The notes under the pieces were generated by a model. That model had not been told where the DNA came from, made no database searches, and worked only from the letters and a program-made list of their open reading frames with translations. Positions 16,610 through 63,609 of a stretch of DNA of 64,000 bases are shown in pieces (the first letter of the stretch is position 1; every line of letters begins with the position of its first letter). Location of the stretch: NCBI GenBank assembly GCA_036323355.1, contig AP028876.1, forward strand, positions 1,364,001-1,428,000, in the 5' to 3' direction. The DNA comes from Gottschalkiaceae bacterium SANA. Its GTDB lineage: Bacteria > Bacillota > Clostridia > Tissierellales > GPF-1. The position numbers and the translations under genes were made by a program.

Positions 16610-18005
16610 TTCAATTATCAGTATTAGGTGGAAACTTGTTTTCACCTATTTATTTTTGATTATTATTTTTGTGATGATTATTCGGATTTTTGTCGCCCAG
16701 ACCATGTACAACGTTTATTTGGACGAAGTGCAGACTGATATCGTGGCGGAAGCAAAGATCTTAGCTTCACAGAATCAATACTATTTGTCACAGTCGGACT
16801 ACCAACCTGTTCGAGAAGATTTTAGCAATCAGTTGAAGGAATATAGCAATAAGATTCAGGCGAGGATTTTACTTTTGGATCCAAAGTTGATGGTCTTAGA
16901 AGACTCGGATGACCGCTTGACCAATACGGTATATGCTTCGAGGGATGCAAGGGACAGCCTTGCTGGTGCCACGGTTATGCGGGTGGAGGAGGAAAGCGAT
17001 CGATTGATTGTCGCTGAACCTATTGTTTACTTTGGCGAAACCATAGGCGTTGCCATCGTGGTCAAGCCATTGACACAGCTTCACTTGCGGGTGGATGAAG
17101 TAACCTCCGCCTTGGATATAATCTCGATCTTTGGTATTCTGATCGTTTTGGTCATCAGCATGATGTTCTCTGACTTGATGACGAAGCCCATCAGTGAATT
17201 AACGGAGACTTTTACCAAGATGAGCCAGGGCAATCTTCATCAACGCGTGGAGATTCATACGCGAGACGAGTTGGAAAAGCTGGCAACGGCATTTAATATT
17301 ATGAGTACCAAATTGGATCAGGTGGATTATCAGCGACGAGAATTCGTGGGAAATGTTTCTCATGAATTGAAAACACCCCTTGCTTCCATTAAACTTTTAT
17401 CCAGTTCTCTCTTGGGCCAGGAAGAAAATGATGAAGCTTTGTATCGTGAGTTTTTAACGGATATCGATCATGAAGTGGATCGTCTGAATGAAATTATTGT
17501 GGATCTTTTGTTGCTGGTAGATTTAGATCGAGAGAAGCTGAGCTTGAATTACAAACCGGCGCTTTTGAATTATCTGATTGAACAGATCTTATATCGGCTG
17601 CAGCCGGTCATCAAGGAAACGGAATCCCAAGTAATTTTTACACCTGTGGATCGTATTCAATTGAATTGTGATGGCAAAAAAATCGAGCAAGCGGTATATA
17701 ATGTCATTCAAAATGCTATTAAGTATTCGGCACCAGATGGGAAAGTGGATATCGTGCTTCGCCGAGAGGGTAAGTTTGCCGTGATCGAGGTGACTGATAA
17801 TGGCATTGGGATTCAACCCGAAGGAATTGATCATATCTTTGAGCGATTTTATCGAACGGATAAGGCGAGGTCTCGGAAAACAGGGGGAACCGGTTTGGGA
17901 CTTTCTATCACCAATCAAATTATTGAGCTTCATCAGGGACGAGTTGAGGTGGAAAGTGAGTTGGGTCAAGGAAGCAAGTTTAAAATTTGGATTCCAGAGG
18001 TGTAG
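16578..18005 (+). CDS. Sensor histidine kinase with HAMP domain
   Basis: This membrane sensor pairs with the preceding response regulator. Membrane helix 1 is at about residues 20-40 and helix 2 at about 178-197, enclosing an extracytoplasmic sensor of roughly 135 residues. A HAMP domain follows, then the H-box SHELKTPL with phospho-acceptor His near residue 262. The N-box NAIKYS, G1 DNGIGI and G2 GTGLGLSI complete the ATPase domain. The start is uncertain: TTG 16578 gives 475 residues and overlaps the regulator gene. The coding region ends inside its own terminator. Confidence 0.92.
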   Translation: MVTILKEKLSNSIISIRWKLVFTYLFLIIIFVMIIRIFVAQTMYNVYLDEVQTDIVAEAKILASQNQYYLSQSDYQPVREDFSNQLKEYSNKIQARILLLDPKLMVLEDSDDRLTNTVYASRDARDSLAGATVMRVEEESDRLIVAEPIVYFGETIGVAIVVKPLTQLHLRVDEVTSALDIISIFGILIVLVISMMFSDLMTKPISELTETFTKMSQGNLHQRVEIHTRDELEKLATAFNIMSTKLDQVDYQRREFVGNVSHELKTPLASIKLLSSSLLGQEENDEALYREFLTDIDHEVDRLNEIIVDLLLLVDLDREKLSLNYKPALLNYLIEQILYRLQPVIKETESQVIFTPVDRIQLNCDGKKIEQAVYNVIQNAIKYSAPDGKVDIVLRREGKFAVIEVTDNGIGIQPEGIDHIFERFYRTDKARSRKTGGTGLGLSITNQIIELHQGRVEVESELGQGSKFKIWIPEV

Positions 18006-18024
18006 CGAAAGTTGCACCTTTTTT
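17999..18024 (+). terminator. Intrinsic terminator overlapping the kinase stop codon
   Basis: GGTGTAGC and GTTGCACC form an 8-bp stem capped by a GAAA tetraloop, followed by six T. The stem includes the TAG stop of the kinase gene. Confidence 0.9.
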
Positions 18025-18030
18025 CAATTC

Positions 18031-18059
18031 TTGCACTTTTTTTAAATGTATGACATAAT
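18031..18059 (+). promoter_or_regulatory. Promoter of the tRNA-Sec gene
   Basis: TTGCAC (18031-18036) and CATAAT (18054-18059) are spaced by 17 bases, with an A/T-rich spacer. The tRNA begins 18 bases further on. Confidence 0.7.
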
Positions 18060-18076
18060 CAATTAGCATACCCCAT

Positions 18077-18173
18077 GGGAGTAGATGAGTGCTGGTGTGC
18101 TCTCTGGTCTTCAAAACCAGTTCGGGGCGTGAAGAACGTCCTGGGTGGGTTCGATTCCCATCTATTCCCGCCA
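18077..18173 (+). tRNA. selC: tRNA-Sec (anticodon TCA)
   Basis: The 97-base gene folds as a selenocysteine tRNA. An 8-bp acceptor stem pairs GGGAGTAG with CTATTCCC, followed by discriminator G and encoded CCA. The anticodon stem CTGGT/ACCAG (18104-18108 and 18116-18120) presents loop CTTCAAA with anticodon TCA at 18111-18113. A long variable arm and the T-loop GGTTCGATTCC follow. It completes the Sec machinery with selD, selA and selB upstream. Confidence 0.97.
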
Positions 18174-18179
18174 TTTAAG

Positions 18180-18208
18180 CCTGATAAATTTTTATCGGGT
18201 TTTCTTTT
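18180..18208 (+). terminator. Intrinsic terminator after tRNA-Sec
   Basis: CCTGATAA pairs with TTATCGGG around a short A/T loop and is followed by TTTTCTTTT. Confidence 0.85.
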
Positions 18209-18279
18209 ATTTGGAGATAAATCCAAAATTAAGAGGGTAAGAATACATAAGGAAAATCGTTAAAACTGAACCGAAATTA

Positions 18280-18358
18280 GCATGGTCTGGAGAAAAGCAA
18301 ACTATTCGTGAGGATAGGACGCAAAGTTAAGCGTCTTGCAAAAGATCGACTGACTGCC
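18280..18358 (+). ncRNA. Cyclic-di-GMP-I (GEMM) riboswitch 1
   Basis: The conserved GEMM core is visible: AGCAAAC, a CTAT/ATAG hairpin capped by a GTGA tetraloop, then GGACGCAAAG. These are the ligand-binding and tetraloop elements of class I c-di-GMP riboswitches. A second helix region (AGTTA with TGACT, inner TCTT/AAGA) follows and could carry the tetraloop receptor. It lies about 80 bases upstream of the first large secreted protein and directly abuts a terminator. About 70 bases before it (18209-18279) hold no clear gene. Confidence 0.85.
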
Positions 18359-18381
18359 TCAAGAAAAGGAGGTGGTTTTTT
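18354..18381 (+). terminator. Riboswitch 1 expression-platform terminator
   Basis: CTGCCTC pairs with GAGGTGG around an AAGAAAAG loop and is followed by six T. Its 5' arm is the very 3' edge of the GEMM aptamer, so the two structures may be mutually exclusive. Confidence 0.8.
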
Positions 18382-18438
18382 AGTGTAAAAAAAAGGGTCA
18401 TAACCCATTATATGTACACGCTGTGAGGAGGACTATCG

Positions 18439-21051
18439 ATGAAAAAACAGTGGAAGAAAAAAGTATTTGTATCGGTATTGATTTTATGTGTGTGTTTTGC
18501 GACGATTGTTAGTGTAGGGGTTTTTGCCAGCGGGTCCGACGCTGGACGAGGAAAATTCGGTGGATTCCAAATGCATAAAGGAGGAAGCACCTACAAAGAG
18601 GGTCAGGAAGGAAAAACGGGTAATGGAGAGGATGGTCACGCTGAAGATGGTCATAGTGATGATTCAGAAGAAGCGTCTGGCGACGCAGATGTAATGAGTT
18701 CAAGTGGTGACAAAAGTGATAAAGGTCATTCATCCGGTGGCTCATCGGGTCATAACGGTGGAAGTGACACCCACGGCAAGCCTGATGACCATGAACCGGG
18801 AGAGGACGAAGGGGAGGATGAAGCGGAGCTGAATCCTTTTGATGAGTCGATTTCAGAAACAGAGTTTGTTGACGAGGGGAAATTTGTTACATTGAATATC
18901 TTCCAAGAAGGTTTGGCAGATGGTGATGAGGCGGTCATCTGTGTCTACAAACTGGACGATGGGGTATTTACGTATAAGAATATCATCACCTTACAGGGTG
19001 ATACAACTGGGCCATATGCTGTTAAGGTTCCTGTAGGGCATGAGTGTTTTATTGAGAGTGCCATGGTGCCAGGATTTGCGACACCAGAGAAACAAACTAT
19101 TTCCTTAGGTACATTTGAAGGTGATTTCACGGAAAAAGTGATCGTGAAGTTCATAGAACATCATTATGAACTTGAAGCTTTCGCTTTGAGCTTCAATAAA
19201 GTGTTTGATCCGCCAATGACGGAAGTTGCAATGTTTATTGATGAAGAGATCTCGGTAAATCCGAAAATCAGTCCAGCTAATGTCGATTATGACATGATCC
19301 AATGGTCATCATCAAACGAATTAGCAGCTATTGTAGAAGCGGGTCTTGTTACGGCTGTAGGAGCTGGAGAATCAATGATTACAGCGGAATTGAAATTAGG
19401 TGAAACTCTACTGGCATCAGCCGAGGTTGAAGTGATCGTACAAGTTTTTCCTGCTATGGGTACAATTTTAGAAAAAACTGAATTTGAGGTTGGTCAAAGG
19501 TATCCTTTGCCGTTGATTATGGAGGCGATGGGACGATCTTTAGATATCGCATGGCAGAACAAGACTTATGTACAAACCCTGGATGATGGCGATTATCTAT
19601 ACTTTATCGCTCCAACCCATGGGAATGAAACTTTGCCTGTAGATGCTGATGTCGACCTGTATGGGATCATTTCTCATGACGTGACCGCGACGGGTCCAAC
19701 TCTTCATGTTTTAGAGCCGGATAAGTTGGAACTGGTTGAGAAGGTTGTTAATCTAAGTGAAAGTGCTTTTGATCTCACTTATCAATTAGAAGGGATCCGT
19801 GGGGAGGTACCTTGGGACCGAACGGATTTGACGGGATTTTATTTTACAAGCACAGATCCGAATATCGTTGCGGTTACGAATGATATGCGTGGCTTGGATG
19901 ACTTGCGGGATGATACGGGTTTGCTTATCAATCAGATTCAAATTGTAACTAAGGCTACGGCGAACGAAACAGGGTATGCGATTGTCAAACTGCGTAACAG
20001 TCAAGGTGTCGAGTTGGCAAGCTGGGGTATTTCGGTTATAAAAGCAGAGATTGATTTGGTGGACAATGCCTATGCCATGGCGTCTTCTGACTTTATGGGC
20101 GAGGTCACCGAAGAGCATTTTGACACAGCTGATGAGGTTTTTATTACTTGTAAAAATTTCTTTGATGCCGATCAGCTCGTTGCATTCAACAATGAAACCT
20201 ACTATATTCGCGTTACGGAAAAGGGTTCGGAGGGTCTTTTGGGTGAAGGCATATTTACCTTCGGTGAGAATGTGACAAAAAATAATGGAGAATGGGCCTA
20301 CTATGGCTCAGATCCAATCAGTTTCGTAGAATTTCAATCGGGCGAGTTTACTGGTGGATTTGTTCAGGTTAATGAGCTAGGTGAAGTCGTGATGGATGGT
20401 TTGGGAAAAACCATTGCTGGATTTCGTTTGATTGATGTTTTAACTGATCTTAGTCCGAATACAAATTCATCGAAAGAAGTTTTTGTGGAAGTCAGCACCT
20501 TTGATGATTATCCAAGTGGTGATGAAGGGGAACGTCCGAAAACCTATCATACCAACTTTAAAATTGGATCTGCAGTTCCCACGGGATCGATTGAAGTCGA
20601 TATTTTGAATCCGGATGAGATTCCATTAGAGTATCTAGTGGGAAGACATGTGGTATTAACGCGTGAGGAGTTCCCAGAAGGAACCGATCTGACATCTGTT
20701 TCCATTTACGATTTCTATAAGGAAGATGTTAAAACGAATCAACCGAATTTCTTGGATGATTATACGGAGATTGACGACATCTATACAAATTTGTATGTGG
20801 ATGAAGTTAAACTCTTTGGTAGAATTGAGGAGAGAACTTCATCGACAACTGGTGAAACAGAACTCTATGTTGCATGGGATCGAGCGCGAGAAGTACCATT
20901 GAAGATTGGTGGTTACTTCCTGCTGATTGATTACAAACCGTATAAAACGAATTTGCAATCTACGTTTGCAGATAATGAAACCATGCTGAAAGAGGTTCAC
21001 CTGAAAAAAACGGGTGAAGTTATTGAAAAAATGGTAATATTTTACGAATAG
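18439..21051 (+). CDS. Large secreted protein with His/Asp/Gly-rich head and BIG2-like domain
   Basis: The 870-residue product has a signal peptide (basic MKKQWKKK, then VSVLILCVCFATIVSV, cleavage near VFAS at 30). Residues 31-130 are low complexity, rich in Gly, Ser, Asp, Glu and with seven His, suggestive of metal or polyion binding. A Big-2/Ig-like unit lies around residues 262-335 (ISVNP, then WSSSN, VTAVGAGESMITA). The rest is beta-rich and acidic with no recognised catalytic motif. No SLH, LPXTG or C-terminal membrane segment is seen, so it is released or held by a partner. It follows c-di-GMP riboswitch 1; AGGAGGACTATCG precedes the ATG. Function is unknown; a surface adhesin or matrix role is inferred. 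Confidence 0.8.
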   Translation: MKKQWKKKVFVSVLILCVCFATIVSVGVFASGSDAGRGKFGGFQMHKGGSTYKEGQEGKTGNGEDGHAEDGHSDDSEEASGDADVMSSSGDKSDKGHSSGGSSGHNGGSDTHGKPDDHEPGEDEGEDEAELNPFDESISETEFVDEGKFVTLNIFQEGLADGDEAVICVYKLDDGVFTYKNIITLQGDTTGPYAVKVPVGHECFIESAMVPGFATPEKQTISLGTFEGDFTEKVIVKFIEHHYELEAFALSFNKVFDPPMTEVAMFIDEEISVNPKISPANVDYDMIQWSSSNELAAIVEAGLVTAVGAGESMITAELKLGETLLASAEVEVIVQVFPAMGTILEKTEFEVGQRYPLPLIMEAMGRSLDIAWQNKTYVQTLDDGDYLYFIAPTHGNETLPVDADVDLYGIISHDVTATGPTLHVLEPDKLELVEKVVNLSESAFDLTYQLEGIRGEVPWDRTDLTGFYFTSTDPNIVAVTNDMRGLDDLRDDTGLLINQIQIVTKATANETGYAIVKLRNSQGVELASWGISVIKAEIDLVDNAYAMASSDFMGEVTEEHFDTADEVFITCKNFFDADQLVAFNNETYYIRVTEKGSEGLLGEGIFTFGENVTKNNGEWAYYGSDPISFVEFQSGEFTGGFVQVNELGEVVMDGLGKTIAGFRLIDVLTDLSPNTNSSKEVFVEVSTFDDYPSGDEGERPKTYHTNFKIGSAVPTGSIEVDILNPDEIPLEYLVGRHVVLTREEFPEGTDLTSVSIYDFYKEDVKTNQPNFLDDYTEIDDIYTNLYVDEVKLFGRIEERTSSTTGETELYVAWDRAREVPLKIGGYFLLIDYKPYKTNLQSTFADNETMLKEVHLKKTGEVIEKMVIFYE

Positions 21052-21104
21052 GCGTTATATAGTAATATGAATTGAAAATAGGTAAACGAGAAGGAGTAAA
21101 AGGT

Positions 21105-21140
21105 AGCGAGTGCCAATTGTCGATTGGCACTCGCTTTTGT
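21105..21140 (+). terminator. Intrinsic terminator after the first large secreted protein
   Basis: A perfect 13-bp stem (AGCGAGTGCCAAT with ATTGGCACTCGCT, loop TGTCG) is followed by TTTTGT. The next 220 bases up to the second riboswitch are A/T-rich and hold no gene; a promoter must lie there but no clear -35/-10 pair is visible. Confidence 0.9.
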
Positions 21141-21365
21141 CGTTGATTTTCATTGAATCCGGAAAATTTGATTTAAGCGAGTGGATAAGAGACGTATATA
21201 TATTCAAACGATAAATAATATTTTACATTTTGGCCAATTAATGTAAAAATACTGTTCTTACTTACGAATTCTTACAAAATGTTATAAAGTTTGAAAAACG
21301 GGGTAATATATCCATACTCAATTAATGGCATATGCTATTAAATTGGTTATTATAGGAAATCAACG

Positions 21366-21455
21366 AAAAAGGCAAACTGCTCGTGAGAGTGGGACGCAAA
21401 GCCAGACATCTTATGACAGAAAAAAGTTACTTCAAGGAAAGAACGGTCGACTGCC
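21366..21455 (+). ncRNA. Cyclic-di-GMP-I (GEMM) riboswitch 2
   Basis: The core reads GGCAAAC, then a short hairpin capped by a GTGA loop (CTGCTC..GAGAGTGG), then GGGACGCAAAGCC, a strong match to class I c-di-GMP aptamers. The 3' end GGTCGACTGCC allows GGCA at 21371-21374 to close on TGCC at 21452-21455. It lies about 105 bases upstream of the SLH protein gene. The closing strand is shared with the following terminator. Confidence 0.9.
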
Positions 21456-21477
21456 ACAGAATTCTGTGGCAGTTTTT
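21451..21477 (+). terminator. Riboswitch 2 expression-platform terminator
   Basis: CTGCCACAG and CTGTGGCAG form a perfect 9-bp stem with an AATT loop, followed by five T. Its 5' arm contains the TGCC that closes the aptamer, so ligand-stabilised aptamer folding should block termination. Confidence 0.88.
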
Positions 21478-21559
21478 AATTGTCATAAACTGGCTGATAT
21501 ATCTATTTATGGCTCTAAAGGCAAGGAATAACATAATGTACAAGAAAAGGAGGTTATCG

Positions 21560-24500
21560 ATGAAAGTAAAAAAAAGGATGGTTGTTTTAGTTGTAATTTC
21601 CATGGTCATCCAATTGATTTCACTTCCAGCATTTGCTGACACTGATTCGACCAACTTAGCGGAGGTTGGTTTTATCGGACCAGGCAAATATGTTGCAGAC
21701 ATTTTAATGATCGACGGCGGTATTTCGAAAGATACGGATGTTGTCATTGGTCAGATGTCTCTATGGAATACACGAGATCGATTGTGGATGACTCTGGATA
21801 CAGACCAAGAGTGGGCGATCCGAGAAGTAATGATCTATGTAGGCGCTGATGAAGTGCCGATTACCCTTGGAGGTGCGCCTGCGATTCAAGAATTTCCGTA
21901 CAAAGCTCAGCTGACGGAGTCGACACATACATATGAATTTTCGTTGGATTTGATGGATGACTTGGATCTGACTTGGGGCAAGCGTGACGAGGCCCGAAGA
22001 ATTCCAAAAATATCGGTTTGTCTTCATGTGGAACCGACGTCTGAAACCAGCACGCAAGGCATGGGATATGCGTGGGGCCAAGGCAATGTGGAATTTCTGA
22101 ACCATACGGGTTGGTGGATGAACTATGCAATTGTTCATCCGAGTACCGGACACTTTATTGATGCGCCAGTAAAAGGCGTGGGCTATCAAACTCCGACACA
22201 TATAGGAATAACGGATGATGGTGGTTCATTTGATTATTTTGCAGGTGAATCCGTTGAGTTGTTTATTGGTGGTGTATCCCTTGGCAAGGTAAAAGCAGAC
22301 CAGCGAATCACACCAATGGATGTGGTAGGAACCAGCGATACGGATGATCCAAGGGTTGTCAACATGGCCAAACTTTTACAAAGTTTGGATGAGGATGGAG
22401 AACCCACCGGCGGAATCGTTATCGATATGGCTACTAGTATGGCGCTGACACGGACCACGAATGAGATGGAGATCGACGCCTTTGACTTCAGTGATTCCGA
22501 TCAGATCGAGAATGTGATTGAAGGGACCAATAAGAAGATGGGCGGGAAGTTAAACCCTGTTGATTCTGTTGACGCCTTGGATAATTTACAAAAAGGCACA
22601 AGCAGTAATATGGTCCGAAAAAATGTATCAAAGAATTCTGCTTTTGAAGACGCAAAGGCGAAACTCGAATTAATGCCGATGTATGTGCCAGCCATGAAAG
22701 CGAATGGCGACCCAGTTACATTAAATTATTATGATTTGGTTTTTGATGAAGAAGCCCAAGAAAATGAGTATGAGCTTAGTGAACAGCGGAATTTAGCGAA
22801 GCCGTTGATTGCATGCTATGCGGAAAAGGTTATGGGAACCAATGGATTTGATATCTATGGGGCTGTTTCCAAGGATGCCGGAGAAACTTGGCAGGTACAG
22901 AATTTATCAAAGTCTGCAGACAAATCTTCATTCATGACGGTAGATGGGATAGAATTTTCGGGAACTTGTCATAAACCACAGATCCGTGTACGTGGAAATT
23001 ATATTCTAGCCGCATGGACATCCAAGTTTGGTAGAACGGGTAATCCGCGCTATGCATTGGAACCTGATGAGCCGTACTATGAAGATGATCTATTTGGCGT
23101 GGGTGGACCACAACGTTCACGTGATTATTCCAGTGATGGGTATTATGAAGTTGGTGAATTGCCATTTAGTGTTGTCTGGACCTGTCGCGGCGTTATTGAT
23201 CCAGCAACTGGACAATTGACTTGGTATAAACCAGAGCGCTTGACTTCTGGTCGACGTGATGCATTCCAACTGATGCAAAGCGGTACTGAAGGTGCCGGTT
23301 TTGGTGTTGTTTGGCAAGAAGATCCTGAAGGTTTACGTCCTGGCGAAATGGCAGGACCTGGGGAAGGTTGGAGTGGAGCGACAACCAACCATAAAACGGA
23401 TATTTGGTATTCTTATATTGCATGGGACGATTTTAAAGATATCGATGTTAATTTCGAATCCAGCGGTGTGCAAAAAGAGGATATCAATGAGGATCAAAAA
23501 GGAAGGCCTAAGGCTGAAATTCCTTTCTCTATGCCTGTGCGGATTTCCGACAATGACACAATCAATACAGAAAGCATGAAAATCGATGAATTGATGATTC
23601 CAGGGCTAGATACTTTGAGCGAAGGTGATTTGCTTTCGGTCAATTCAAGTAATTTTGTTCCGCTTCTGGAAGCAGGCGATGATCAAGGCACCCATAAGTA
23701 TGGGTACGCCAATTTGCCTAGTTATTACAATGGTCCTGCGATCTGTGACCAATTGTATTTTAAAGTCAATCATCAAGAAGCCGATAAATATGTGGCGGTA
23801 ACAGAAGATGGACGAATTCTTGATGGTAATACAGGAGCGTCTCGCCCTAATATCATGATGCAACCATATATGACTAAAGATGCAAATGGCAAGTCCTACA
23901 AAAGCGCCTGGGTTGTCGTTTGCTATGAAGAAACCAAGGGTGCTGGTGCAGGACCGGATGAAGTAACAAGTGCTTCTTACGATGAACACACCCCCACCGA
24001 TATTGAGAGTGGAACGACTGACGAGGGTGTTCCAGTTGATGATGAGACGGCCCCAGTTGATGAATTGACTGAAGTGGGCGTTGACCCAGTAATTGCGGAA
24101 GGCTCAGGTGTTGGTGAACAAAAAGGCAAGGAAGCCTATGTTCCTGATAATGGCAAATTAGTGATCTACCATACCTTTGATATGGCCAAGCCGGATCTTG
24201 TTAGTGCGGGAGAGATAATGAATCCGCAAGTGGAAATTGACTCTCAGGCTGACTTTGATCACTATGTGTGGGAAGACGGTAGTCTGCCAGGCCTCATTCC
24301 TAGCAAAGGGAATGTAGATGCAAAAAAAGGTGACGTTCATAGGGGATTATTGTATTTAGTTGACGAAGCCGGCGAACTCCTTCTTGATTTCAACAAAGAC
24401 CCAATTCCAGCTTATGAAAATGCACGTAGACCGAGACTTTTAATCCAAGGTGCAAATGGTGCCTTGGGCAAATCGTCTACAAGTTCCCCTGCAAAATGGG

Positions 24501-27346
24501 ACACCGGAACGTCTTTGGTTATGGTCTATAAAATGGGCGAAAACGGTATGGGTCGTCCGAGCGATATTTTGATGAGGAGATGGGAAATCCCTAGCACCAT
24601 AAAAGGAAGTCGGAATCCTTACTCAACCGAATTCTTATCGGACGAAATTTATAATATCAGCGCTACTAGACCAACTGAAGAAGCGATAAATATCAATAGT
24701 TCAGAAGATAAAAGTGGCGATGGCATCAAGGTAATGCGTTGGGAACAACCTGAAGAAGCCCTTATGGATGCGACTTATGCAAATCCGTATGAAGATGCTA
24801 GAGCGCATCGAGGCATTCTTCGAGGAAAAAAATTAGCGATTGCCTACGACCATACGCCAAATTGGGCAGCCTCAAGAAATGGCAATGACGTGTATAATCT
24901 GTATCTGCGACGCTCTTTCGACGGTGGCGAGACATTTACAACCAATCCGAATGGAAACAACGACGTGTATATTGATGGTGTTTTCCAGGGAATTGGTGTC
25001 TTGCATCAAGATTTGTATCGAACGGCTCTAGGGACAGGAAACGAACGAATTGACGATGATGAAATTCCGAAAGTTGTCGTCGAGACCTATTGGGCAAAAG
25101 GTGAATATGAGCCGGCTCAAAATTTATCCAAACTTCAGAACAATAAAGAAACGGTAATTGAGCCGCGATTGGTCGGTGGACCATCATCCACGAAAGTCAA
25201 TGGCAAGGTGGTATATGGTGAAGACCAACGTAATATCAATTTGTTCTGGGTTACCTACGGTACAAGCAGCAATCCTGGAGATGATTCCATGGAAGCGAAA
25301 GTACCTTTAGATTTGTATTACAGCTATACTGATGATTTTGGTGATTCATTCTATCATGAAGCAAAAATTGTTAATGAGACCAGCCAAGGTCATTATGCGG
25401 GTCAGGAACGAGATGTTTGGCCATGGCTTGCCAAAGATACAGGCAAACTAGAAAGTGCACAGGCTGAGTGTCAAATCCGTATGTCACCGGATGGTACTGT
25501 TATGTATTCCGTATGGAATGAAAATGGAAATAGCGGTGGAGATGTGAAATTCAGACGGATTATGATGGACGGCAAAATGATCGAATCAGATATTGATATG
25601 GTTGACGTCACAGCACCGTTTATTACGATTTCAGGAATTGAAGATGGCGATGTTAGAAGTGAAGACGTATCTATTGGGATCTCCTTAAACGAATTGGGTT
25701 CTTGGGAAGCGACAGTTTCCGAAGGAACTAACGAAGATGTATATACGACGAGCCCGATAGAAATTGCGGCATCAACAACTCCGAAAGCATACGTACTGGA
25801 CGTTGTTGCCACTGATTTGAGTGACAATACAAGTTTTAGACATATTGCCTTTACCATAGATGGCAATGTGCCTCAGATTGATATAACTGGTGTTGTGAAC
25901 GGTGAGCATAGCAATGATGATGTACATCTAGAGATTCATACTTTTGATGCGGTTCCAACGATTGAGTTATTGTGGAACGGTTTCATAATGCCAGCTAAAA
26001 GTGTGTATGATTTGGATGCGGAAGGCGAATATGACTTAACTGTTAGAGCTGAGCTTGATGGCAAAACATCTGAAAAACATATCGGTTTTGTTATTGACAA
26101 AACGGCACCGACTATTCGAATTGAAGGTGTTGAAGATGGTGAAACCTATGTTAACAGTGCAGATCCTCATGTTACAGTCACGGATAGTTTAAGCGATTAT
26201 CTGAACGAACTGACCATGTTGATGAATGGTAATGAGTACCTGAATTCTACAAAGATTTCAGAAGGCGGAGAATATACCCTTGAAATTATCGCAATTGATA
26301 AAGCTGACAATCGGGCAGAAGCGTCTGTAACCTTCAATGTAGAAGTGATTGGTACGCACTATCGACTCCAAGCAATTGCTCCTGAAACGGTTGAGGGAGT
26401 CATTCATGTAGGCAAGGGAGCAACCATTTTATTTAAGAATGACTTTGCAACCTTGCAAGTACCTGTTGGTGAATTTGATGAGGATGTTTCCTACATCATT
26501 GCACCGGCCACAGGTGAAACATCCAGCGGCAGAAGTTTGAAGGTTGGAGATTTGACATACAATATCGAGTTCTTCGATAAAGATGGCCAAAGGATCGATT
26601 CATTTGATATACCGATGACTCTGACCTTTGCCTACAATGATGAAGACTTGCCGGTAGGAAATTTGGAATCTGAACTTCGAATTTGCTACAGAAATGACCA
26701 ACTTGGAGAATGGATTGTAATTCCTGGAACAAGTGATCGGGTTAACAATTTAATTACTGCCAAGATCAGTCATCTGTCTACCTTTGGGGTGCGTGCTGTG
26801 AAGGCGTTCCCAGATTTGGCGGATTGCGGCAATCATTGGGCAGCAAATCATATCTACCGATTGGCCAGCCTAGGCATTGTGTGTGGTGATGATCAAGGCA
26901 ATTACAAACCAGAAGAATTAATTACCCGTGAAGAATTGGCGAAGATTTTAGTGAATACCATTGATTTGGCATCCGACGGTCAAATGGTTGCGGCAGATGA
27001 AGATGCGATTTCTGATTGGGCAAAAGAATTTATGCGCATTGCGGTGGCAACAGGTGCTTTGAAAGCGGATGGAAACGGAAATGTAAATCCGCAGCGATAC
27101 GCAACGCGACAAGAATTGATCGCAGCAGCAAAAGCGGTCTTTGGTCTGAAGGTTTTGAATGTAAAACCAGTCGCTTTTTCTGATTTGGAAACCTTACCAC
27201 GTGAACTGCATCAAGCGGCACAAGTAATGAGCCAACATGGTATCCTGAATGGATATGAAGACGGAAGCATCCGTCCAGATGGTTCAATTACTCGTGGAGA
27301 ACTGGCGAAGATGATTTCTCAGTTTTTGCTTGCAGAGCGTCAATAA
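21560..27346 (+). CDS. Giant SLH-anchored surface protein with Asp-box and Ig-like repeats
   Basis: The 1928-residue product has a signal peptide (KVKKRMVVLVVISMVIQL, cleavage near AFAD). Asp-box motifs of the sialidase/BNR type are seen near residues 437 (SKDAGETW) and 1118 (SFDGGETF), suggesting beta-propeller structure. Three Ig-like units starting APFITISGIEDG, VPQIDITGVVNG and APTIRIEGVEDG span about 1348-1595. Three SLH domains close the protein (about 1750-1928; FPDLADCGNHWA, then YKPEELITREELAK), anchoring it to secondary cell wall polymer. ATG 21560 follows AAAAGGAGGTTATCG; the frame is open upstream to 21383 but that part overlaps the riboswitch. It resembles multi-domain proteins with interchangeable anchors. 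Ligand and activity are unknown. Confidence 0.85.
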   Translation: MKVKKRMVVLVVISMVIQLISLPAFADTDSTNLAEVGFIGPGKYVADILMIDGGISKDTDVVIGQMSLWNTRDRLWMTLDTDQEWAIREVMIYVGADEVPITLGGAPAIQEFPYKAQLTESTHTYEFSLDLMDDLDLTWGKRDEARRIPKISVCLHVEPTSETSTQGMGYAWGQGNVEFLNHTGWWMNYAIVHPSTGHFIDAPVKGVGYQTPTHIGITDDGGSFDYFAGESVELFIGGVSLGKVKADQRITPMDVVGTSDTDDPRVVNMAKLLQSLDEDGEPTGGIVIDMATSMALTRTTNEMEIDAFDFSDSDQIENVIEGTNKKMGGKLNPVDSVDALDNLQKGTSSNMVRKNVSKNSAFEDAKAKLELMPMYVPAMKANGDPVTLNYYDLVFDEEAQENEYELSEQRNLAKPLIACYAEKVMGTNGFDIYGAVSKDAGETWQVQNLSKSADKSSFMTVDGIEFSGTCHKPQIRVRGNYILAAWTSKFGRTGNPRYALEPDEPYYEDDLFGVGGPQRSRDYSSDGYYEVGELPFSVVWTCRGVIDPATGQLTWYKPERLTSGRRDAFQLMQSGTEGAGFGVVWQEDPEGLRPGEMAGPGEGWSGATTNHKTDIWYSYIAWDDFKDIDVNFESSGVQKEDINEDQKGRPKAEIPFSMPVRISDNDTINTESMKIDELMIPGLDTLSEGDLLSVNSSNFVPLLEAGDDQGTHKYGYANLPSYYNGPAICDQLYFKVNHQEADKYVAVTEDGRILDGNTGASRPNIMMQPYMTKDANGKSYKSAWVVVCYEETKGAGAGPDEVTSASYDEHTPTDIESGTTDEGVPVDDETAPVDELTEVGVDPVIAEGSGVGEQKGKEAYVPDNGKLVIYHTFDMAKPDLVSAGEIMNPQVEIDSQADFDHYVWEDGSLPGLIPSKGNVDAKKGDVHRGLLYLVDEAGELLLDFNKDPIPAYENARRPRLLIQGANGALGKSSTSSPAKWDTGTSLVMVYKMGENGMGRPSDILMRRWEIPSTIKGSRNPYSTEFLSDEIYNISATRPTEEAININSSEDKSGDGIKVMRWEQPEEALMDATYANPYEDARAHRGILRGKKLAIAYDHTPNWAASRNGNDVYNLYLRRSFDGGETFTTNPNGNNDVYIDGVFQGIGVLHQDLYRTALGTGNERIDDDEIPKVVVETYWAKGEYEPAQNLSKLQNNKETVIEPRLVGGPSSTKVNGKVVYGEDQRNINLFWVTYGTSSNPGDDSMEAKVPLDLYYSYTDDFGDSFYHEAKIVNETSQGHYAGQERDVWPWLAKDTGKLESAQAECQIRMSPDGTVMYSVWNENGNSGGDVKFRRIMMDGKMIESDIDMVDVTAPFITISGIEDGDVRSEDVSIGISLNELGSWEATVSEGTNEDVYTTSPIEIAASTTPKAYVLDVVATDLSDNTSFRHIAFTIDGNVPQIDITGVVNGEHSNDDVHLEIHTFDAVPTIELLWNGFIMPAKSVYDLDAEGEYDLTVRAELDGKTSEKHIGFVIDKTAPTIRIEGVEDGETYVNSADPHVTVTDSLSDYLNELTMLMNGNEYLNSTKISEGGEYTLEIIAIDKADNRAEASVTFNVEVIGTHYRLQAIAPETVEGVIHVGKGATILFKNDFATLQVPVGEFDEDVSYIIAPATGETSSGRSLKVGDLTYNIEFFDKDGQRIDSFDIPMTLTFAYNDEDLPVGNLESELRICYRNDQLGEWIVIPGTSDRVNNLITAKISHLSTFGVRAVKAFPDLADCGNHWAANHIYRLASLGIVCGDDQGNYKPEELITREELAKILVNTIDLASDGQMVAADEDAISDWAKEFMRIAVATGALKADGNGNVNPQRYATRQELIAAAKAVFGLKVLNVKPVAFSDLETLPRELHQAAQVMSQHGILNGYEDGSIRPDGSITRGELAKMISQFLLAERQ

Positions 27347-27367
27347 TGGTTTTGAAAGGAGGGAACA

Positions 27368-30004
27368 ATGAAAAAGCATACTAAAGTATTTGTTTATTTA
27401 ATGATTGTGATTCTAGCATTGACGACACTAACGAGCGGTACATTCGCGCAAGGCGGTGATAACGGCGGAGGGGGTGACAGTGTCAAAGATCCGAAGCCTG
27501 AGTTGAGTATCACGAAGATTCGGCCGAAGGAGTCTACTGAATACAGTTGGATTTTGGAGCCAAGCTTTGGTGAGTGGACTAAAAATGATGATACGGACTT
27601 GCATGAGAGCATGCTGGATTTCACATTTAAACGCGTGCTAGATGTTGACAACTTAGGCGTCTATATCGAAGCAAATTTGAGCACATTCGCCGCTGATTCC
27701 TTGGTTGTAGAGCTCGGTTATATTGGCTGGGTTGATGAAGAAGGAAATCCAATGTATGAAGAAGATGGTATTCCTTTTACCGACGAAAATTACGAAGCTG
27801 TAGGCGATCAACAGCGGACCTTTATTGCTCTTTATTCGCAAAGAAACGTAAGTTATCAGCGGATTGCTGAAGGTGGGGAAGCTATCAAGTTGAACTTCCT
27901 ATGGGAAGATATTGACCGTTCCTTGTTCGATGATCCTGAAACTTATGATGAATATCCAGATGATGAAGTTGACAATAATATTGTTGAAGGGATTAATCGT
28001 TTCAGACTGGGTGTGGAATATGTCAAGAGTCGTGGTAATGTCGGCATGGAAACGGATCAACGAGAATTTGCTCTAGAAGAGCATGAAGCATTTGCCTTCG
28101 CATCAATTGAATCTGATTTATTAGGTGTGCTTGATAATGCGAAGTTTGATTCAGATGCTACTGATTCTATATGTAGAGTTGGGGCTGACGAGTGGCTGAT
28201 CAATCCTTTTAATCTTCCCTTGGGAGAAGGGGATGAGTTCTTGATTCAAGCCCTAGTGGAAACCAATATTCCAGAAGAGTTGCAATTTGATAAGGTTACC
28301 TTTTCTGCCTACCCATATTTGGAAAGTAGTGATGAGTATAAAGTGGAGCGGGACGTGGAAGGGTATCCGGAAATTGCTACTGCAGAATTTCCAAGTACTG
28401 GCTATGTGCAGTCGTCAGTTGCCAGTTTAGCATCTGTAACGATTACTTATGACGAAGAATTTTGGGATCAAGACTCATCGGAAGTTACGCAAAATCATCA
28501 AGGTGATGCTGACTTAAAAAGCTTATTTGATGAAGAAAATTTGCCGTATCTATTGCCGATAGGCTCCGGACTCCCTGTGGTCTCGGCGGTTGAGTTTGAT
28601 CCTACAACAGCGACCCATATTGTAGAGCAAGCAACTCGGGACAACCTAGTTGCAACAATTACGGTGACTGCTGAGGACGGAAGGGAAGTGGACTATGAGA
28701 TTCCTTTTGAGTTCGATGGCAATACCGATGCAAGATTGGATAGCTTGACAATCAATGGGGGTATGGTTGTCGGCCATGCGATTGATTCCTTTGAACTAGA
28801 AAGTGGCGTGATCACGGAAGGTATTGTCAATGTGCCATTTGACCCGTCGGTGTATTTCTACCATATCTTTATAAGTGAGGATGGTGATGACGACGTTCAG
28901 AATAATGTTGACTATAGTGTAATTCCAAAAGACGATGGTGTTTTAGCCCCAGAGAATATTGGGACGCTTGGAGATCCACCTTCAATTCTTGGCGAAAAAT
29001 TCTTTGCTAGTCTGATTCCTGACGTTGAATTGGTTGAGTATAAAACGACGACCTACGGGGATAGTGCATATCCACGCAAGGAAACGATCATAGTCACTGC
29101 AGAGGATCAAACTCATAAATCAACCTATACGATCTTAATAGCGCCATTGGGCTATATTCCTGAAGAGGAAGAGGAAAATAATGGCAGCGGAGAAGGCGGT
29201 GGCGACGGCGGTGAGATGCCACAGCCAAAAACTGGAAAAGGGCTGGATGTGCTGGCTGTTGATAATGTTTTAGTCGAAGGGTTTGTAGCTGGAGAAGTGG
29301 AAGAGGGAGAAATAGAATTATCTGTACTTCTGGACGAAGGTACTCGCTCGTTGCCAAGTGTTACAGCGGTTGCATCAAATCCAGAGGCAACAGTGCAGCA
29401 TATTAAGCCTACTCGATTGCCTGGCAAGTACAAAATCAAGGTAAATGAGACGGATGATTCTACAACACTTTACACTTTGAATATGGAAGTAGAAGGTTTG
29501 GAAGAAGGTGAATTTATTGAGCTTGGTGCCATACTTCCACAAGAGATCTTAGGATTGTGGCTACCGCCAACGGGTGATGATTTTGTTTTGGGTCGAACTA
29601 GTACACAGATTCGTTTCTGGGTCTCTGAACAATTATTATCACCACAGCTTCGAATTTATGTGGATGAGGCGGGTGAAGATACCTTGTTCAATCCAGGAAA
29701 TTTGGTTAAAACTATTTCTACCAGTGAGTTGAAGATGAGCGGTGGTAATGGTAAACATTCTCGATCAACTGCCGAAAATGGTGATGGAGGATACTACAAG
29801 TACAATTTAAAAGGTCGCAATTTTCCATCATTGGTAGAGGGTGAGAATTATATCATCGCATTGTTCGAATTTGATGGATCTAGCTATAGTGTTGTTCATT
29901 TCCAATTGGGACAACCTGCAATGCTTCATTTCACCATGGGTGAAACGACCAAGACTAGCGTTGATCATCGAAATCGCGATATCAATCTATTGGAACAAAG
30001 ATAA
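27368..30004 (+). CDS. Large secreted protein with cadherin-like beta-sandwich
   Basis: The 878-residue product has a signal peptide (MKKHTKVFVYLMIVILALTT, cleavage near TFAQG) followed by a Gly/Asp linker. A cadherin-like beta-sandwich region lies at about residues 455-595 (DARLDSLTINGG, later IIVTAEDQTHKSTYTI), followed by a Glu/Gly-rich linker near 598-618. Two further beta-rich parts follow. No SLH, sortase or membrane anchor is present. It starts only 21 bases after the SLH gene behind AAAGGAGGG, so both are one c-di-GMP-responsive transcription unit. A role as a binding partner of the SLH protein is inferred, not shown. Confidence 0.8.
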   Translation: MKKHTKVFVYLMIVILALTTLTSGTFAQGGDNGGGGDSVKDPKPELSITKIRPKESTEYSWILEPSFGEWTKNDDTDLHESMLDFTFKRVLDVDNLGVYIEANLSTFAADSLVVELGYIGWVDEEGNPMYEEDGIPFTDENYEAVGDQQRTFIALYSQRNVSYQRIAEGGEAIKLNFLWEDIDRSLFDDPETYDEYPDDEVDNNIVEGINRFRLGVEYVKSRGNVGMETDQREFALEEHEAFAFASIESDLLGVLDNAKFDSDATDSICRVGADEWLINPFNLPLGEGDEFLIQALVETNIPEELQFDKVTFSAYPYLESSDEYKVERDVEGYPEIATAEFPSTGYVQSSVASLASVTITYDEEFWDQDSSEVTQNHQGDADLKSLFDEENLPYLLPIGSGLPVVSAVEFDPTTATHIVEQATRDNLVATITVTAEDGREVDYEIPFEFDGNTDARLDSLTINGGMVVGHAIDSFELESGVITEGIVNVPFDPSVYFYHIFISEDGDDDVQNNVDYSVIPKDDGVLAPENIGTLGDPPSILGEKFFASLIPDVELVEYKTTTYGDSAYPRKETIIVTAEDQTHKSTYTILIAPLGYIPEEEEENNGSGEGGGDGGEMPQPKTGKGLDVLAVDNVLVEGFVAGEVEEGEIELSVLLDEGTRSLPSVTAVASNPEATVQHIKPTRLPGKYKIKVNETDDSTTLYTLNMEVEGLEEGEFIELGAILPQEILGLWLPPTGDDFVLGRTSTQIRFWVSEQLLSPQLRIYVDEAGEDTLFNPGNLVKTISTSELKMSGGNGKHSRSTAENGDGGYYKYNLKGRNFPSLVEGENYIIALFEFDGSSYSVVHFQLGQPAMLHFTMGETTKTSVDHRNRDINLLEQR

Positions 30005-30033
30005 ACTGATAAACTGACTTTATCGTCATCGAT

Positions 30034-30088
30034 AAGCACCCTCCTCACTGTACGGCTTTGCCGGCAGTGGGGGGGTGCTTTCTTGTTT
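30034..30088 (+). terminator. Intrinsic terminator after the surface-protein operon
   Basis: AAGCACCCTCCTCACTG pairs imperfectly with CAGTGGGGGGGTGCTT, with an inner CGGC/GCCG hairpin, followed by TTCTTGTTTTTTT. Confidence 0.88.
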
Positions 30089-30190
30089 TTTTTACATGAA
30101 TTTTTAACTTTTTATAACATTTTTTTTCTTTCCTCTTTCAGCCTTTCCTACATGGTAGAATAAGAATGGACCTTATGAAGGGAGAACAAT

Positions 30191-30568
30191 ATGGAAAAGA
30201 AAATTTTAGTATGCGTGACGCAGCAAAAAACGTGTGAACGCTTGATTTTAAAGGGATATGAATTGATCGATCAGGAATCCGATCACCTAACAGTTTTACA
30301 TGTAGTCAAACAAGGTGCTCACTTTTTGGAGTACTCCTCCGATGCTCAGGCCTTGGAGTATTTATTTGAAGTATCAAAAGAGGTTGGAGCTGAGTTAACT
30401 GTGAAACGTTCAAAGCATGTCTTAGATGATATGGTGAAATATGCAAAAGAGGAACAAGTCACTCATATGATTTTGGGTGCCTCTCCCTCTCAGCAAACAC
30501 AAGAGAAGAGTTTTGCGATACGCTTACAAGACAGACTGCCAGAAGTGAATTTAATTGTAATGGATTAG
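30191..30568 (+). CDS. Universal stress protein family protein
   Basis: The 125-residue protein has the Usp alpha/beta fold: an initial strand KILVCVTQQK with a following Cys-Glu-Arg helix, LTVLHVVKQG as the second strand, and the nucleotide-binding loop region THMILGAS near residues 93-100. It resembles the Usp module found in KdpD sensors more than classic UspA. An extended -10 (TGGTAGAAT, TAGAAT at 30157-30162) and GAAGGGAGAAC lie upstream. It may be co-transcribed with the following peptidase. Its specific role is unknown. Confidence 0.8.
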   Translation: MEKKILVCVTQQKTCERLILKGYELIDQESDHLTVLHVVKQGAHFLEYSSDAQALEYLFEVSKEVGAELTVKRSKHVLDDMVKYAKEEQVTHMILGASPSQQTQEKSFAIRLQDRLPEVNLIVMD

Positions 30569-30577
30569 GGAGGACGA

Positions 30578-31837
30578 ATGGTGAAAACAAAGCAAGCGAT
30601 TATCAAGAGAAGAGAAAAATTATTGAAGCATCTGAAACCGGGTACCTTGGCGTTGCTATTTTCGGGACGAGCACCTTATCGTTCGGCTGATGCGAAATAC
30701 CCATTTCACGTGAATCGGAATTTTTATTATCTGACAGGGGTTGATCGAGAGAATTTTGTTTTGTATCTTTATAAGTCGCCAAAGGGAGAAATCTGCGAGC
30801 AAATATTTCTAGAAGAATTGAATCCAGAGATGGAGAAGTGGACAGGGTTTCGTATGAAGCCTGAGGAAGCGAGTGCAATTAGTGGAATTGAGAAAACTGG
30901 ATTCGTTTCTGATCTTCAAAATCAGGTATTTCGCTTGATGGCTGGATTTCAAGTGACATCTTTGGCTTTGGATTTAGAGCGCCCATCCTGGGAGTTTGCT
31001 GGCTATGAGGCCCATCGCTTTTTAGAAAATGTACAACCAAAATACCCACAAATCCCTTTATATGATCTGTCGCCGTATTTTGCTGAAAGGCGAATGATCA
31101 AAGATGAGATGGAAATTCAAGCACTTAGAAAGGCGATTGCCATCACAGAGAAAGGCTTGGATCGCGTACTGGATCGTTTGAAACCCGGTCTTATGGAATA
31201 TGAGGTACAGGCTGCTTTTGAATCAACCGTGATGGAAAATGGAAGCTGTCCGGCATTTTCGACGATCGCTGTTGGAGGCGAGAATGCGGTGGTCTTGCAC
31301 TATGAAGACAATAATAAGAAATTAAATGATGGCGAGTGTATTCTTTTGGATTTGGGGGCGGACTGGAGTAAATACTCTGCGGATATTTCAAGAACCTATC
31401 CCGTAAATGGACGTTTTTCTGAGCGACAAAGAGCAGTTTACGAGGCGGTGTTGGATACCTTGAAGACCGTTACGGCAGCCGTGAAACCTGGAAAAACCCT
31501 GATGAATCTACAGAATCTTTCCAAGGAAATATTGGGCGGGCATTTGAAGGCATTGGGTTTGATTGAAAGGGAAGACGAAATTATAAAATATTATTATCAT
31601 GGGATTGGCCATCACTTGGGGTTGGATACCCACGATGCCTTTCATCGAGGCCTTGAACTTAAACCGGGTATGGTGATTACTGTAGAGCCGGGGCTTTATA
31701 TCAAGGAATGGGGCGTTGGAGTTCGCATTGAAGATGACGTCTTGGTCACGGAAACGGGTTACGAGGTCTTGTCAGCTTCCATTATCAGGGAAGCGGATGA
31801 GATTGAAGCACGCATGAATCATAATTCCATGAGTTAA
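30578..31837 (+). CDS. pepP: Xaa-Pro aminopeptidase (M24B)
   Basis: This metallopeptidase removes N-terminal residues preceding proline. The N-terminal AMP_N domain (about 1-130, with LLFSGRAPYRSADAKYPF and NFYYLTGV) precedes the pita-bread catalytic domain. Metal ligands are visible as Asp in LDLGADW and ADISRTYP, His in GIGHHLGLDTHD, and Glu in TVEPGLY and RIEDD. The length of 419 is normal. ATG 30578 is four bases from GGGAGG and GTG 30581 seven bases, so either may be used. A long bidirectional terminator follows. Confidence 0.93.
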   Translation: MVKTKQAIIKRREKLLKHLKPGTLALLFSGRAPYRSADAKYPFHVNRNFYYLTGVDRENFVLYLYKSPKGEICEQIFLEELNPEMEKWTGFRMKPEEASAISGIEKTGFVSDLQNQVFRLMAGFQVTSLALDLERPSWEFAGYEAHRFLENVQPKYPQIPLYDLSPYFAERRMIKDEMEIQALRKAIAITEKGLDRVLDRLKPGLMEYEVQAAFESTVMENGSCPAFSTIAVGGENAVVLHYEDNNKKLNDGECILLDLGADWSKYSADISRTYPVNGRFSERQRAVYEAVLDTLKTVTAAVKPGKTLMNLQNLSKEILGGHLKALGLIEREDEIIKYYYHGIGHHLGLDTHDAFHRGLELKPGMVITVEPGLYIKEWGVGVRIEDDVLVTETGYEVLSASIIREADEIEARMNHNSMS

Positions 31838-63361: not shown

Positions 63362-63609
63362 AAGACAAAGGCGAAGAACGAAAGAAAATTCTTGTGGGTA
63401 TCTGTAGCGAACCGGGATTGGTGAAAGCCGGTGATAGAAGCAGGATGACGAGCTTTCAGGAGCTGTCGATTCAACCCAGATGGGTCAAAATCGAACGACA
63501 CCGCACGTTAAGCGGCACGCAGTCAGCGTGATAAGTGAGCAGATTCTTTATGCTAATTAGGGTGGTACCGCGAAACCTTTCGTCCCTTTCAAGACGAGAG
63601 GTTTTTTTT
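63362..63609 (+). promoter_or_regulatory. T-box leader controlling an amino acid transporter
   Basis: The conserved T-box AGGGTGGTACCGCG is at 63559-63572. The terminator follows: AACCTTTCGTC pairs over 11 positions with GACGAGAGGTT (63593-63603), then eight T. Stem I is visible upstream, with GAAAG/CTTTC and CTTG/CAGG helices and the distal AGCGAACCGGGATTGGTGAAAGCC part. The specifier loop is in GGATGACGAGC (about 63443-63453); the frame is ambiguous, allowing ATG, GAC or CGA. Uncharged cognate tRNA is expected to open the terminator. Confidence 0.94.

Follow-up and report, generated by a model that had tools for sequence, protein, structure and literature searches.

In the present study, we analysed a 64,000-nucleotide stretch of the genome of Gottschalkiaceae bacterium SANA (assembly GCA_036323355.1, contig AP028876.1, positions 1,364,001 to 1,428,000 of the forward strand; hereafter the window). 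In this stretch, two leader RNAs precede the gene of a secreted protein (P0001) and a two-gene unit encoding the choice-of-anchor O protein P0002 (hereafter O), which carries S-layer homology (SLH) repeats, and the secreted protein P0003. We propose, with a probability of roughly 0.65, that both leaders are transcriptional ON switches for cyclic di-GMP (c-di-GMP), which would co-activate the SLH-anchored propeller protein O, its partner P0003 and the accessory protein P0001. The leader elements, in window coordinates, are as follows.

18286..18361, forward strand: c-di-GMP-I (GEMM) aptamer ahead of P0001 (RF01051, 49.0 bits, E 1.5e-6)
18352..18377, forward strand: terminator hairpin of the P0001 leader, nine pairs followed by U6; the 5' arm reaches into the end of the aptamer and includes the C92 equivalent
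21361..21458, forward strand: c-di-GMP-I (GEMM) aptamer ahead of the choice-of-anchor O gene (RF01051, 49.1 bits, E 1.4e-6)
21449..21474, forward strand: terminator hairpin of the O leader, 11 pairs followed by U5; its 5' arm includes the C92 equivalent

The whole window was scanned with Rfam cmscan, and both aptamers exceeded the RF01051 gathering cut-off of 35 bits, in agreement with the original prediction that class I GEMM aptamers lie ahead of these genes. A motif-anchored reading revealed that the equivalents of G20, A47 and C92, which we take to be the usual numbering of the contact bases in GEMM aptamers, were kept in both. In all ten RF01051 aptamers of the organism's own genome the G20 position was occupied by G (A47 was unreadable in one), and cyclic GMP-AMP (cGAMP) was therefore set aside as their ligand. 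The accessible part of PMC6274999 links a G20A change to cGAMP in GEMM aptamers. The G at this position fits c-di-GMP as the predicted ligand, which both window aptamers would bind.

In both leaders, the intrinsic terminator starts ten bases before the end of the aptamer, and this arm overlap couples the expression platform to the aptamer. Because of the overlap, aptamer and terminator are mutually exclusive. Two genus relatives showed the same arrangement in three leaders (G001_O, G002_O and G002_P1). These leaders of the window thus appear to have the anatomy of ON switches, and they would probably act in that direction in the cell. When c-di-GMP is low, the aptamer's 3' end, with its ligand-pairing C, would fold into the terminator, and transcription would halt in the leader. 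At high c-di-GMP, the bound aptamer would retain its 3' strand and block the terminator. Read-through would then give two transcripts, one for P0001 and one for O and P0003, and all three proteins would be exported. Control of these genes by a single messenger, as had been proposed from the letters of the window, appears well supported, because the contact bases are kept, the platforms are of the ON type and other families of c-di-GMP aptamer precede orthologues of the SLH protein.

The O protein and its parts were located as follows.

21560..27346, forward strand: P0002, the 1928-residue choice-of-anchor O protein with a C-terminal SLH anchor (open reading frame; signal peptide by eye)
22592..25594, forward strand: residues 345-1345 of P0002, modelled beta-propeller (AlphaFold2 (AF2) predicted local distance difference test (pLDDT) 71.0, predicted template modelling score (pTM) 0.76)
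26807..27335, forward strand: three SLH repeats of P0002, about residues 1750-1925 (PF00395, E 5.1e-26, three stretches)

The start of P0002 was placed at the ATG at 21560, because a ribosome-binding-site-like GGAGG precedes it and the signal peptide begins there; a longer frame is possible from a GTG at 21383, inside the aptamer. P0002 belongs to the choice-of-anchor O family NF040591 (542.2 bits against a cut-off of 125, E 2e-162, residues 431-1321, profile positions 3-670 of 670), so the earlier statement that none of the three protein bodies matches a family had to be abandoned for the middle one. The name of this family gives no function, and the phrase 'choice-of-anchor O' did not occur in the literature searched. 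Residues 1745-1925 matched the SLH regions of other proteins, and the Pfam scan found no SLH match in P0001 or P0003, which agreed with the claim that only the middle protein is wall-anchored. O would accordingly be held at the wall by its SLH repeats and present a large, highly conserved propeller.

The propeller model was built from the 22-row alignment A7, in which all 22 rows match NF040591, and residues 345-1345 were clearly predicted to form a beta-propeller. On realignment with VIA-align, the best solved structures were sialidases (Z 14.0, root-mean-square deviation (rmsd) 5.8, 275 residues aligned); sialidases filled rows 1-4 (Z 13.2-14.0, rmsd 5.2-5.8), and identity was 4-13% in the 50 rows shown. 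Foldseek alone gave a weak result, with a spliceosome subunit in the top row and all TM-scores below 0.3, and the fold was for this reason read from the realigned list only; sialidases and glycosidases appeared in the Foldseek list between 2e-4 and 1e-3. The model favours a propeller of the sialidase type. Counting against this assignment, an arabinanase tied (13.2), a fucose lectin (12.0) and TolB (11.2) were close, other propellers lay within 2 Z units, and the rmsd of the structural match is high.

The shared fold raises an alternative that we consider unlikely, though by no means negligible, namely that O is a glycan-cleaving propeller enzyme and that the system remodels or feeds on surface polysaccharide instead of providing an adhesin. 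The sialidases and the arabinanase in the first rows of the comparison point in this direction, as do the long invariant polar and aromatic stretches of the O alignment, which suggest a functional pocket. However, no Pfam glycosidase family exceeded its cut-off in P0002 (BNR reached 12.0 bits against 27), and a sequence search of alignment A7 against solved structures returned 0 matches. A specific assignment of P0002 as a GH33 sialidase was rejected on the same BNR score, with no other glycosidase family listed. We prefer the reading in which the O propeller binds, and less likely cuts, a matrix or surface glycan. Adhesion or matrix binding by O would be in keeping with the usual role of c-di-GMP, for a protein that is exported and predicted to be ON at high c-di-GMP.

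The genome of the organism (3.49 Mb) contained at least ten RF01051 matches, at least nine of them over the cut-off (150 of 299 first-look candidates scored), and 33 GGDEF matches, which together make c-di-GMP signalling plausible. No RF01051 match was found in 14 control genomes, and no class II c-di-GMP aptamer match in the own genome. The ten own aptamers serve nine genes, one through a tandem pair, and all nine genes have signal-peptide-like starts by eye. At G000:C1:2093131-2102418 (L002, L003, L004 and L010), four GEMM-I aptamers, two of them in tandem, lie among genes of exported repeat proteins, and two open reading frames there have LPXTG-like tails by eye.

The distribution of O was then compared across genomes. 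NF040591 was found in 6 of 249 genomes of the order, five of them over the cut-off, and in 1 of 391 and 2 of 398 genomes of the class and phylum surveys, the own genome included. A scan of genome contigs with the single protein P0002 found no relative, and profile A1 found 19 loci, five of which lie on the same contigs as G001, G002, G021, G045 and G749. The orders of G1013 and G1012 contributed further loci, in 8 of 136 and 5 of 69 genomes, respectively; viral contigs and plasmids gave no O match. The 19 loci are labelled Bacillota, Actinomycetota, Thermodesulfobacteriota, Acidobacteriota, Chloroflexota and Verrucomicrobiota, and the O family is thus sparse across loci labelled with six phyla. 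Because all 19 loci come from metagenome bins, individual labels may be in error: L075 bears the title Aeromicrobium but belongs to the order of G1012, and L068, labelled as acidobacterial, clusters with Desulfo-type rows. In a metagenome-assembled genome named Thermincola ferriacetica, the O gene (L064:8723-14242) has one in-frame TAG between two long frames, for which readthrough, error or decay are candidate causes.

Upstream DNA was available for 30 O loci, each counted once, so that second O copies in L077, L097, L099 and L103 did not enter the count; L104 and G054, in which the O start lies off the contig, and L106, the same contig as L078, were excluded. L062, L063 and L079 were scanned with Rfam through shorter or longer twins (L013; L012 and L037; L015 and L039, respectively), and L064 by Rfam at the gathering threshold only. 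L096-L106 and L112 were scanned with our own models R1 and R2 only, so a class I aptamer could be missed there. Among the 30 loci, 12 had an aptamer at the Rfam cut-off, four an aptamer by our own models, two a weak candidate and 12 none. At the Rfam cut-off, class I aptamers stand just upstream of O in the window, L062, L063 and L065 (cut at the contig end), class II aptamers just upstream in L067, L076 and L079, II-GAG aptamers upstream in L071, L072, L073 and L075, and an I-GGC aptamer in L074. Four Rfam aptamer families therefore precede O, in few independent lineages. By our own models, a II-GAG aptamer stands upstream of O in L112 (R1, 65.5 bits, E 1.9e-10), and an I-GGC-like aptamer stands in L101 (R2, 50.2 bits) ahead of the gene preceding O. 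That gene encodes an exported glycine-rich protein without a Pfam family (L101:1466-2926; L102:3817-5379 likewise precedes O), and in L101 the aptamer leads the pair. The R2 scores of L069 and L096 are so by construction, because both helped to build R2; L096 was recognised by eye, and L069 has a sub-threshold Rfam match (28.3 bits against a gathering threshold of 59, E 0.013). The weak candidates L070 (17.6 bits) and L098 (18.9 bits) have only their position in their favour, because a wrong-strand match inside an O gene (L071:10244-10334, 19.7 bits) outscores both.

Protein regulators were also found near O. A small PilZ gene over the Pfam cut-off lies beside O in six loci (L069, L070, L074, L096, L097 and L103), and a LuxR-type regulator lies close to O in these six and in L099 and L100; in L096, it is downstream on the other strand. 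The receiver of this regulator resembles VpsT below the cut-off only. Electron transfer through multihaem cytochromes near O was dropped as a candidate function, because none of the open reading frames of at least 90 residues in L062-L080 had three or more CXXCH motifs.

These data bear on a second alternative, in which the recurrent aptamers only mirror the fact that genes of exported proteins commonly have c-di-GMP leaders, O being one target among many. O is indeed one of nine targets in the own genome, because all of the at least ten own matches precede exported-looking proteins. In G021 and G045, however, a tandem of two class II aptamers lies ahead of O, and these were the only class II matches among the candidates scored (two in each genome; 150 of 212 and 145 of 145 scored). 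Moreover, only three strong aptamers lay away from O leaders in 512 kb from 32 sources (L064:94-179, L073:22034-22119 and the P0001 leader of the window), where L096-L106 and L112 were covered without Rfam's own models, and the link recurs with four aptamer families. We therefore regard this alternative as rather improbable.

A maximum-likelihood tree of O placed the class II row L067 as sister to the class I rows of the window, L062 and L063 (support 100/100). L065 (class I) and L066 (none found) came next, and L076 (class II) was outermost in the Bacillota clade (99/98); the long branches L098 and L100 were placed uncertainly. On this tree, the aptamer class appears to have changed at least twice between I and II while the O gene stayed. 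The link between O and c-di-GMP would recur with a change of sensor: Bacillota have class I or II, an order labelled Actinomycetota has II-GAG, and Desulfo-type bacteria have I-GGC, with PilZ and LuxR-type neighbours. We tentatively suggest, at somewhat under even odds, that choice-of-anchor O is a dedicated c-di-GMP output, a transferable surface module that each lineage in these six-phylum-labelled loci has re-equipped with the sensor at hand (class I, II, II-GAG and I-GGC aptamers, or regulators of the PilZ and LuxR types); the control may in this way outlive the RNA. Two genome surveys (PMC12452182 and PMC9943018) name variant aptamer families, in their accessible parts without targets.

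The remaining genes of the locus and their elements are listed below.

18439..21051, forward strand: P0001, the 870-residue secreted protein (open reading frame; signal peptide by eye)
21105..21135, forward strand: terminator closing the P0001 unit, 14 pairs
27368..30004, forward strand: P0003, the 878-residue secreted protein, second gene of the O unit (open reading frame; signal peptide by eye)
29540..29947, forward strand: C-terminal domain of P0003, conserved, at about residues 725-860 (holds 21 of the 23 columns that are invariant in the five-sequence alignment A6)
30035..30079, forward strand: likely terminator of the O-P0003 unit, a hairpin followed by a U-run (by eye; absent from the terminator scan list)

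The open reading frames of the three proteins were as originally described. In alignment A6, the N-terminal part of P0003 was variable and the C-terminal domain conserved. A P0003 relative was found 3' of O in seven of the eight Bacillota loci with a readable 3' flank (the window, G001, G002, G021, G054, L064 and L066); only its C-terminal domain was recognisable in L064 and L066, and no relative was found after O in L076. The contigs of G045 and L065 end too early to judge. Among the open reading frames of L062-L080, P0003 was confined to Bacillota loci, and L096-L112 lay outside this search. O and P0003 thus appear as a conserved pair in Bacillota, in which P0003 would be the co-expressed and perhaps physical partner of O. 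In L066 (15732-19493), SigI- and RsgI-like genes by eye, followed by a weak match to the SLH region of P0002, lie 3' of O and the P0003 relative.

P0001 behaved differently from this pair. Its unit has its own terminator, so P0001 and O-P0003 are transcribed as two units, each with a switch of its own. A search of 59 other relatives yielded a full-length relative only in G002 (59% identity, behind the same kind of aptamer), and three further genomes gave short weak matches. P0001 is thus present in two of the three genus members and missing from G001, and it may be an optional accessory; residues 276-316 bear a weak Ig-like (Big_2) trace below the cut-off. The three-protein locus of the original prediction was accordingly narrowed, since the SLH protein and P0003 form the conserved pair and P0001 stands apart. 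The multi-part surface layer or adhesive fibre of that prediction would be a candidate product of these genes. In G001, the gene order is a selenocysteine tRNA (tRNA-Sec), GEMM-I, O and P0003. In G002, separate contigs carry tRNA-Sec, GEMM-I and P0001; GEMM-I and O; and O and P0003. A tRNA-Sec gene also lies directly ahead of the locus in the window (18077-18169, 75.3 bits). Upstream of the G001 tRNA-Sec lie genes that by eye resemble SelB and a two-component pair, and window open reading frames of 653, 229 and 475 residues have like lengths and like order to those genes. Elsewhere in the window, a T-box leader was found at 63365-63590 (RF00230, 97.9 bits).

Several observations weigh against the proposed ON switches and the recurrent link. 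Of the ten own leaders, a script found the sequestering overlap in six; the hairpin starts downstream in two (L001 and L006), and the tandem pair gave no convincing sequestering terminator, leaving four of ten without one. Ahead of O in other loci, the script detected the overlap in the class II leaders of L076, L067 (in both copies) and L079 (in the first copy) and in the II-GAG leader of L071, but the hairpins of L065 and L074 were weak and not aptamer-sequestering, and L072, L073 and L075 yielded no aptamer-sequestering terminator; in L065, a terminator that the script missed is visible by eye only. Terminator-like sites in 17950-30700 numbered 12 against a shuffle mean of 9.3 (sd 2.9), which is no clear excess, and the promoter scan was uninformative (21 sites against a shuffle mean of 29.7). 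By the models used, 12 of the 30 O loci had no c-di-GMP aptamer (L064, L066, L068, L077, L078, L080, L097, L099, L100, L102, L103 and L105), including the two Bacillota loci L064 and L066. Owing to kinship, the loci cannot be counted as 30 independent trials: all five II-GAG loci fall in one order, the I-GGC loci L074, L096 and L101 in another, three class I loci in one genus, and L067 and L079 (class II) in one family. Prediction of the structures singly gave the O propeller described above, but the P0003 model was poor (pLDDT 40.6, five sequences) and was left uninterpreted. Finally, according to PMC6200980 and PMC11477304, the class I switches of Clostridioides difficile are generally OFF and its class II switches ON, and the switch direction proposed here rests for this reason on anatomy.

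The comparison with C. difficile also informs the last alternative. Its adhesins (class II: CD2831 and CD3246; class I: PPEP-1/ZmpI) are exported to the surface and controlled through c-di-GMP-responsive leader RNAs, as is predicted for O; the adhesins increase at high c-di-GMP, and the same rise would be expected for O. In contrast to the class I OFF switches and sortase-anchored adhesins of C. difficile, the window combines class I leaders of ON anatomy, an SLH anchor and another protein family. That the window switches turn their genes OFF at high c-di-GMP, as class I switches do in the available text of PMC6200980, and that the proteins serve a motile state, is highly improbable, given that the terminator overlaps the aptamer in both window leaders and in three from two genus relatives, and that orthologues use class II aptamers with terminators beginning 17 nt ahead of the aptamer's end (L067, both copies; L076; L079, first copy). 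The ON reading finds a counterpart in the pilM riboswitch of Geobacter metallireducens, a GEMM-I fold and ON switch in which, according to PMC9262584, the ligand-pairing C is captured by the terminator, as in the window leaders; its ligand is c-GAMP, whereas the G at the G20 position of the window aptamers fits c-di-GMP.

The accessible literature joining c-di-GMP riboswitches with S-layers, surface proteins or PilZ concerns mostly C. difficile, and c-di-GMP riboswitch control of single surface proteins is already known. The class I leaders of ON anatomy described here are available for contrast with the class I OFF switches of that organism. If the link between O and c-di-GMP is true, the O family, placed across differing c-di-GMP aptamers and c-di-GMP-binding domains, would offer a natural experiment on regulator turnover. 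It would also tie a family without a stated function to a sessile lifestyle and provide a physiological target for the I-GGC and II-GAG aptamers. Collectively, the recurrent link hints at a widespread and so far unstudied component of bacterial settlement on surfaces.

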